Below, piece after piece: positions 38,189-39,836 of a DNA stretch of 44,891 nucleotides. The stretch covers positions 1-44,891 of the forward strand of contig QIAB01000069.1 in assembly GCA_003225455.1 (NCBI GenBank). Direction: 5' to 3'. Origin of the DNA: Acidobacteriota bacterium (GTDB lineage: Bacteria; Acidobacteriota; Terriglobia; Terriglobales; Acidobacteriaceae). The translations under genes were made by a program, and so were the position numbers. The notes below the pieces were generated by a model. It was not told the DNA's origin and did no database searches. It was given only the letters and a program-made list of their open reading frames with translations. Position 1 is the stretch's first letter. Every line of letters starts with the position of its first letter.

Positions 38189-39361
38189 TCAGTACTTGGG
38201 CATCTTGGGATCCACGCGGTCGGCCCAGGCCAGTATTCCGCCGGCAAGATTGTGAACTTTCTTAAAGCCGGCTTGCCGCAGGAAGTCCACAGCCTTGGCA
38301 CTGCGCGCGCCAGAGCGGCAGTGAGCCACGATCTCGCGGCTGGAATCGAGCTCATGCACACGCTTGGGCAGATCGCCGAGCGGGATGAGATGGCCATTGA
38401 TATTGCAGATCTGGTATTCGTGGGGCTCGCGGACGTCGAGGACAAAGATATCCTCGCCTGCATCCAATCGCCGCTTCAGTTCTTCCACTTGAATTTCCGG
38501 AACTCCTGCTTCCACGGTCTTCTCCTCGCCGCGAATTCCGCAAAACTCATTGTAGTCGATGAGCTTTGTAATGCTCGGATGCTTGCCGCACGCCGGGCAG
38601 TCAGGATTCTTGCGCAGCTTGAGTTCGCGGAACTTCATGCCCAGCGCGTCAACCAAAAGCAGACGGCCGATCAGCGGGTCGCCTTGGCCGAGGATGAGCT
38701 TGATGGCTTCGGTTGCCTGAATCACGCCGACAAGCCCCGGCAAAATGCCCAGCACTCCACCTTCAGCGCAGGAAGGGACCAGCCCCGGCGGTGGCGGCTC
38801 AGGATACAGGCAGCGGTAGCACGGGCCTTCTTCGGTGGCAAACACGCTGGCTTGCCCTTCGAAGCGGAAGATCGAACCGTAGACGTTCGGCTTGCCCGTG
38901 AGTACGCAGGCGTCGTTCACCAGGTAGCGGGTGGGGAAATTGTCGGTGCCATCGGCGATGATGTCGAAATCACGGAAAAGCTCGAGCGCGTTGTCGCTGG
39001 AAAGCCGCGTTTCGAACTTTCGGATATTCAAAAATGGGTTAATCGCTTTGAGCTTCTCTGCCGCGGAATCCAGTTTCTTGCGGCCTACATCAGCAGTTGA
39101 GTGAATAATCTGGCGCTGGAGATTGGTGTAGTCCACCACGTCGAAGTCGACAATTCCGAGCGTACCGACGCCCGCCGCCGCCAGGTACAAAGCCAGCGGC
39201 GATCCCAGTCCGCCCGCCCCGATGCACAGCACCCGCGCCGCTTTCAGCTTCTGCTGCCCTTCCATGCCCACCTCCGGCATGATCAAGTGGCGCGAATAGC
39301 GCAGGATTTCGTCGTTAGTAAGCGTTGTGGTCGCGGGCTGGACTTCGGTTAAGGTTGCCAT
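38189..39361 (-). CDS. moeZ: MoeB/ThiF-type adenylyltransferase with rhodanese domain (MoeZ-like)
   Basis: A 390-residue E1-like enzyme that adenylates and then thiocarboxylates the Gly-Gly tail of small sulfur carriers. The ThiF/MoeB domain (about 15-265) has RYSRHLIMPEVGMEGQQKLK, the nucleotide motif CIGAGGLGSPLALYLAAAGV, DFDVVDYTNLQRQIIH, and the zinc Cys pairs CYRC and CPAC. A linker leads to a C-terminal rhodanese domain (about 290-385) with LDVREPHEYQI and the active-site Cys in VAHCRSGARSAKA. The start at 39361 gives MATLTEVQPA. It follows the MoaD-like gene on the same strand after a 184-base palindromic repeat element. The two probably form a sulfur-transfer pair for molybdopterin, thiamine or cysteine. 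Confidence 0.9.
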   Translation of the reverse strand: MATLTEVQPATTTLTNDEILRYSRHLIMPEVGMEGQQKLKAARVLCIGAGGLGSPLALYLAAAGVGTLGIVDFDVVDYTNLQRQIIHSTADVGRKKLDSAAEKLKAINPFLNIRKFETRLSSDNALELFRDFDIIADGTDNFPTRYLVNDACVLTGKPNVYGSIFRFEGQASVFATEEGPCYRCLYPEPPPPGLVPSCAEGGVLGILPGLVGVIQATEAIKLILGQGDPLIGRLLLVDALGMKFRELKLRKNPDCPACGKHPSITKLIDYNEFCGIRGEEKTVEAGVPEIQVEELKRRLDAGEDIFVLDVREPHEYQICNINGHLIPLGDLPKRVHELDSSREIVAHCRSGARSAKAVDFLRQAGFKKVHNLAGGILAWADRVDPKMPKY

Positions 39362-39545
39362 ATTTAGTAATTGTGCGATTTGGTAATTGAGTAATTTGCT
39401 TCTTTGCGAACTTCGCGTATCTTTGCGTCCTCTGCGGTCACAAGCTTTTGACTTTGGGCGAGGAAAAGATTTTAAGCGCAAAGTTCGCTAAGCTGGCGGA
39501 AACGTCGCAAAGAAAAGCCAGCCTAAATTACCCAATTACCAAATT
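39362..39545. repeat. Palindromic element built of 8- and 7-base repeats between moaD-like and moeZ
   Basis: The right side carries 8-base units AATTACCC, AATTACCA, AATTTCAC, AATTGCTC and AATCCCTC from 39526 to 39565; the last two reach into the MoaD-like gene. The left side (39364-39398) is an imperfect inverted copy of the same octamers. Between them lie CTTTGCG units in both orientations. The whole 184-base gap can fold into one long hairpin. The left arm sits immediately upstream of the moeZ start codon on the minus strand. Confidence 0.8.
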
Positions 39546-39836
39546 TCACAATTGCTCAATCCCTCTCCCTCCAGCGATCGAGGGCACTATGGAAATGTTA
39601 TCAGCTTCCCTAACGGCAGTGGCTTCCTTCTGGAGATAGCGAACATCTTCGTCGTTCAGGTAAACGTTGACGAAGGCGCGCAGCTTCCCATCTTCGGTAT
39701 AAAGATGCCGTCGCAGGTCAGGATGCTGTGAGACCAGCCCGCTCAATGCCTCTCCGACCGTGGAACCTTTTACTTCAACCGCAGGTTGCTTGCCGGCATA
39801 CTGCCGCAACGGCGTGGGAATGTGGATCTTCGGCAC
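39546..39836 (-). CDS. MoaD/ThiS-like sulfur carrier protein with extension past Gly-Gly
   Basis: A 96-residue ubiquitin-fold sulfur carrier. It shows KIHIPTPLRQYAGKQPAVEV, the helix STVGEALSGLVSQHP, LRAFVNVYLNDEDVRYLQ and the C-terminal strand ADNISIVPSIAGG. In active carriers the protein ends at Gly-Gly, which is thiocarboxylated by MoeB/ThiF-type enzymes. Here GG is followed by six more residues, RGIEQL, encoded by the 8-base repeat array. It would need trimming by a JAMM-type protease, or it is impaired. The start is a GTG at 39836 and the ribosome site is weak. It is followed on the same strand by moeZ. Confidence 0.8.
   Translation of the reverse strand: MPKIHIPTPLRQYAGKQPAVEVKGSTVGEALSGLVSQHPDLRRHLYTEDGKLRAFVNVYLNDEDVRYLQKEATAVREADNISIVPSIAGGRGIEQL

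Follow-up and report, generated by a model that had tools for sequence, protein, structure and literature searches.

The window, by which we mean the whole stretch of 44,891 nucleotides that was analysed, carries on its minus strand a gene for a CysO-like sulfur carrier of the ThiS/MoaD family and, downstream of it, a gene for a MoeB/MoeZ-type E1-like enzyme; the junction of the two genes is occupied by an inverted repeat, here called I1 (Table 1). The start of the carrier gene was placed at the GTG at 39836 on the basis of the N-terminus MPKIHIPT at which its relatives begin, and a longer open reading frame version of 136 aa was rejected as over-long at the N-terminus. It is clear from the minus-strand codons that the protein ends in ...SIAGG-RGIEQL-stop: GGA GGG (39572-39567) is followed by AGA GGG ATT GAG CAA TTG (39566-39549) and by the stop codon TGA (39548-39546), which bears out the first-pass annotation in its claim that six residues follow the Gly-Gly.

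Table 1. Features of the carrier-moeB locus, in coordinates of the window
Feature	Position	Strand	Remarks
MoeB/MoeZ-type E1-like adenylyltransferase with C-terminal rhodanese domain	38189..39361	minus	390 aa, intact
Inverted repeat I1, moeB-side arm	39362..39397		abuts the ATG of moeB; Shine-Dalgarno motif absent
Inverted repeat I1, carrier-side arm	39525..39560		holds the IEQL codons and the stop
CysO-like ThiS/MoaD-family sulfur carrier	39546..39836	minus	96 aa, running from GTG to TGA
C-terminal tail RGIEQL (six residues), predicted to be cleaved off	39549..39566	minus	pLDDT < 50, unconserved
Conserved Gly-Gly, predicted maturation point	39567..39572	minus	motif kept in linked carriers

Residues 4-90 of the carrier matched the Pfam profile ThiS (PF02597) with 50.6 bits, and its best PDB matches were the M. 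tuberculosis carrier chain 3dwg_C/3dwm, a structure that stops at Gly-Gly, and 4n6e_B. Most of the fold was confident in the AlphaFold2 model, while residues 89-96, that is the Gly-Gly together with the tail, remained below a pLDDT of 50 and are predicted to be disordered. The neighbouring MoeB matched the ThiF and Rhodanese profiles with 286 and 59.8 bits, respectively.

The two arms of I1 are 36 nt each and 86% complementary. Read along the gene, the repeat sets in precisely with the I codon and takes in IEQL and the stop, amounting to 12 of the 18 tail bases, with the RG codons lying outside it, and a tandem array of 8-base period (39526-39553) reaches only 5 of the 18. The earlier statement that the tail codons are largely the 8-base repeat thus holds only for IEQL and the stop, and there it is I1 that contains them. 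The junction was found to fold at -80.6 kcal/mol (z = -5.4), with none of 200 shuffles folding as well, and pieces of the repeat were found elsewhere in the genome at 77-91% identity. No general palindrome rule was obtained for the junction, as strong inverted repeats (p <= 0.01) were present in just 7 of 50 junctions, and an Rfam scan of 20 junction loci gave zero matches. The window and its nearest relatives have an inverted-repeat spacer with no ribosome-binding motif before moeB, and several relatives with such repeats are likewise without a Shine-Dalgarno motif there. The carrier stop and the moeB start are drawn close together by the hairpin, and translation of moeB may depend on coupling across it.

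The carrier-side arm is an ancestral insert common to the window species and to the relatives G027, AA150 and AA144, in which it lies just after the Gly-Gly of carriers that are 91-94% identical to that of the window. From this one shared insert four tails have arisen, RGIEQL in the window, KAD in G027, SAIESCETCKWVN in AA150 and ASDWVIGKFGNCIILNLRELKGSVLV in AA144, which differ by small indels and substitutions; as judged from the sequences compared, this four-way divergence is neutral drift. The genome is a draft of 195 contigs with a repeat at this very site, as would suit an error of sequencing or assembly where the carrier gene ends, but the separate assemblies of the near relatives show the same insert in the same place, also with no stop after Gly-Gly, and such an error is hardly credible. 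The first-pass annotation had also allowed for damage, in the sense that insertion of the repeat destroyed a stop after Gly-Gly and left a defective carrier gene. The repeat origin of the IEQL codons and the stop would fit with this, and so would the moeB start without a Shine-Dalgarno motif in the window's clade. However, the carrier and MoeB are both intact and score as full families, relatives without the repeat have tails too, and the carrier body is conserved across the clade, the insert-bearing near relatives included. Since the orthologues do not end at Gly-Gly either, the claim of damage did not hold up, and we regard it as very improbable. The repeat merely supplied, by accident, the last tail codons and the stop.

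Tails were then compared among 174 distinct non-fused moeB-linked homologues, mostly from Acidobacteriota. An exact Gly-Gly end, the orthologue pattern that the first-pass annotation had set against its own reading, was found in only 3 of the 174, whereas 7 of 23 carriers without moeB linkage end exactly at this point. The 174 carriers have 124 distinct tails, with a median of 3 and a maximum of 39 aa, and at least 30 further carriers are fused after Gly-Gly via a short linker to MoeB-rhodanese. While the tails are unconserved, the Gly-Gly and the residues just before it are fixed across the relatives: the motif [IL][IV]P[SA][IV]AGG was present in 95 of the 95 linked carriers tallied, and A88 and G89 of the carrier were nearly invariant in A3. 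In counts that ignore relatedness, Asp, Glu or Pro directly followed Gly-Gly in 2 of the 171 non-empty tails, as against 15% at later tail positions; Cys stood first in 31 of the 171, and each of 30 MoeB fusions had S, A, T, N or V at this place. Such a bias is as would be expected for a cut site. All sequence counts given here are raw as to relatedness, and kinship is accounted for only in the carrier-MoeB tree described below. The linkers from Gly-Gly to MoeB are rich in A, S and P and occur in many lineages (L027, L050, L086, L109 and L127, among others).

The JAMM/Mec-type protease that the first-pass annotation had proposed to look for was found in the genome as a single Prok-JAB gene (G000:C120) with an intact JAMM motif (HSHP...SxxD). 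It adjoins a gene for a CysM-like cysteine synthase, the best match of which was TIGR01138 cysM, at 341.6 bits and thus short of that profile's curated cut-off (394.2). A JAMM gene was present in 96 of 100 relatives, the four without it (G020, G037, G042 and G071) having no close carrier, and in all of the 76 genomes with a carrier at E < 3e-24, the window's own included. Among relatives with upstream sequence, the usual gene order was cysM, JAMM, carrier, moeB; in the window's genome the operon is split over two contigs, with the cysM-like gene and JAMM on C120 and the carrier and moeB on C164. The same genome encodes a second ThiS-family carrier (G000:C134:5578-5859, L052) with the tail LS, which lies beside a threonine-synthase-like gene and shares with the first carrier the single Prok-JAB gene; it could also be a substrate of the JAMM.

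Taken together, these data point to a cysteine pathway of the CysO/MoeZ/Mec type in which the carrier arises from a capped precursor through trimming by the JAMM protease, a reading to which we assign a probability of roughly 0.83. It is known that Mec of M. tuberculosis hydrolyses the bond between the Gly-Gly of CysO and cysteine, releasing cysteine from the CysO-Cys adduct. A tail encoded in the gene is joined to the carrier by a Gly-X bond of this same kind, and the pathway would therefore already contain an activity that makes tails harmless. RGIEQL would then have no job of its own in the window species and would be tolerated because a Mec-type JAMM metalloprotease, cutting directly after the carrier Gly-Gly, is needed in any case. 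The JAMM encoded on the other contig would free the Gly-Gly, MoeB-rhodanese would adenylate and thiocarboxylate the freed end, and sulfur would pass from the thiocarboxylated carrier into cysteine synthesis. As the JAMM would cut after Gly-Gly anyway, selection on the position of the stop would be relaxed, so that the tail may drift, fuse to MoeB or, as in the window, be overwritten by intergenic repeats; in relatives, the relaxed tail would also carry a cysteine-codon leader. From co-occurrence and operon order we infer that the JAMM removes the cap, and the cleavage, the cleaving enzyme and the chemistry leading from the thiocarboxylated carrier to CysM are likewise proposed from sequence. 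The first-pass annotation had spoken of a regulated precursor: a JAMM-trimmed precursor is well supported, since tails are the rule, the Gly-Gly is kept and a JAMM gene accompanies this carrier in every genome sampled, but the word regulated finds no support in the window's genome.

What speaks against this reading is that the JAMM gene is unlinked to the carrier in the window's genome, unlike in most relatives, and that the second carrier, too, could be what the JAMM acts on. The cap might be taken off by general exopeptidases or by a protease other than the Mec-type JAMM. The lack of linkage would fit with this, and so would two contigs with the label Thermoplasmata (L123 and L124), in which a cysM gene lies 15-18 nt upstream of a fused carrier and no JAMM gene was found within the 6 kb examined. 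However, JAMM co-occurs with the carrier in every sampled genome, usually directly upstream, and QbsD is a biochemical precedent for a JAMM in this role (PMC6006322). The MoeB fusions argue against exopeptidases in particular, because an internal Gly-Gly could not be thiocarboxylated unless it was cut, and the fusions would thus need an endopeptidase acting after Gly-Gly. Removal of the cap by some other protease is therefore considered unlikely.

Further insight into the junction came from cysteine codons. A cluster was defined as at least 4 Cys codons within ten codons at the carrier-moeB junction, and such clusters were observed in 42 of 159 relative junctions (L008, L009, L011, L014, L223, L240 and 36 others). 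The first sample comprised 68 unique junctions, of which 19 had a cluster, against a mean of 0.9 and a maximum of 4 in dinucleotide shuffles, with 0 in the antisense control and 1 of 93 upstream of the carrier. For a second sample, made up of new genomes of the same family, the figure was 23 of 73, with a mean of 1.25 and a maximum of 4 in the shuffles and 1 in antisense. All 42 clusters lie at the end of their ORF, 0 to 5 residues before the stop; 27 are in separate mini-ORFs, and in many of these the start lies 2-8 nt beyond the first base of the carrier stop; the other 15 are in the carrier's own tail, as in ...LPTCCCPACCC and ...VPMRCCCPACCCR. The Cys codons comprise 172 TGT and 67 TGC. 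The stop of the cluster ORF, whether free or fused, lies 38-64 nt before moeB in most of the window's family and farther away in more distant loci, and 41 of the 42 cluster junctions have a ribosome-binding motif ahead of moeB. No conserved RNA structure was obtained with RNAalifold between the Cys mini-ORF and moeB in 13 aligned junctions. On a tree of 162 carrier-MoeB rows, the cluster trait showed at least 10 changes on well-supported branches and 21 by parsimony.

A cysteine leader ahead of cysM was rejected as a general feature, since of 82 upstream regions only 4 had a candidate and just two of these were convincing. In L127, the carrier of which is fused to MoeB, and in L120, poly-Cys stretches occur upstream of cysM or the operon (MNKPCYCFCCCVCCVCCW... 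and ...HCCCCRSSRACPSS). At another locus (L192, G052:C65), a gene for an AhpC/TSA-family peroxiredoxin is preceded by a mini-ORF that contains CCCCC and ends 134 nt upstream of it, possibly a similar leader on a redox gene. Genome-wide TGY runs were rejected as a marker of such leaders, as they fell mostly in other reading frames and coding repeats.

The junction clusters look like a cysteine-sensing leader, for which they are a candidate. No Cys cluster was found in the tail or spacer of the window or of its nearest relatives; the tree places the window's clade among cluster-bearing lineages, which makes a loss likely, and the window species probably lost its cluster. We are slightly inclined towards a joint proposal in which the carrier-moeB junction of Acidobacteriota is a cysteine sensor: the cluster would stall ribosomes when Cys-tRNA is short and thereby raise moeB expression, the form grafted onto the carrier would be cut off by JAMM, and the window's lineage would have lost the sensor, a repeat hairpin taking its place. 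It could also be argued that the tail has a function in the window species itself, in regulation, in the timing of maturation or in protection of the Gly-Gly, given that the cysteine cluster in the tails of 15 relatives looks selected and that exact Gly-Gly ends are so rare in the moeB-linked family that some tail could be favoured. RGIEQL, however, has zero Cys residues and does not resemble the tails of the nearest relatives, and we think a function of this kind quite improbable.

If the capped-precursor reading is right, the end of a carrier can evolve without constraint even though the carrier's chemistry requires a free C-terminal Gly-Gly, since a pathway protease is able to restore it; this would explain the drifting tails, the repeat-encoded tails and the repeated MoeB fusions alike. 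It is also a warning against labelling such tailed carrier genes as broken. In the relatives, the C-terminus so released from constraint seems to have been co-opted into a leader peptide that senses cysteine, a regulatory device open to testing.

The locus resembles the CysO-MoeZ-Mec-CysM system of M. tuberculosis and the class 4c operons of Iyer et al. (2006), among which that paper includes an acidobacterium (Susi) (PMC1779556). As in these, there is a beta-grasp ThiS/MoaD carrier with a conserved Gly-Gly that is nearest to CysO, an E1-like enzyme with a rhodanese domain beside it, and an intact-motif JAMM with a cysteine synthase beside it. In M. tuberculosis, however, CysO ends at Gly-Gly, whereas the window's carrier is capped and its operon lies on two contigs; the single operon of class 4c is thus lacking in the window's genome and is found in most relatives. 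Carriers with capped C-termini typically need a protease such as QbsD (PMC6006322), and the window shares with QbsE/QbsD and PtmS2/PtmS1 the residues encoded after Gly-Gly and a JAMM in the genome. Those pairs belong to natural-product pathways and their caps are stated to be one or two residues. In the window's family, by contrast, the tails vary freely and reach 39 aa, or a complete MoeB is fused on instead, and the pathway appears to belong to primary cysteine metabolism. The relatives' fusions, with an internal Gly-Gly and a predicted cut after it, are similar to MoaX, the MoaD-MoaE fusion of M. tuberculosis that is cut after the second Gly (internal Gly82), a cut needed for activity (PMC4326299); the fusion partner in the relatives is MoeB and not MoaE, and the window's carrier is unfused. 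Candidate Cys leaders have been described in Actinobacteria, where a short ORF carries runs of Cys codons close to its stop and no terminator hairpin is conserved (PMC1262725), and polycysteine short ORFs were reported by Canestrari (2020), as cited in PMC9094748 and PMC13236596. In the literature searched, such a leader was found described only for Actinobacteria, where it lies upstream of operons. The window has no such Cys runs. In its cluster-bearing relatives in Acidobacteriota, short ORFs ahead of a cysteine gene likewise close with Cys runs and show no conserved fold; unlike in Actinobacteria, the runs lie within the operon, between carrier and moeB, and are sometimes fused to the carrier as its tail.
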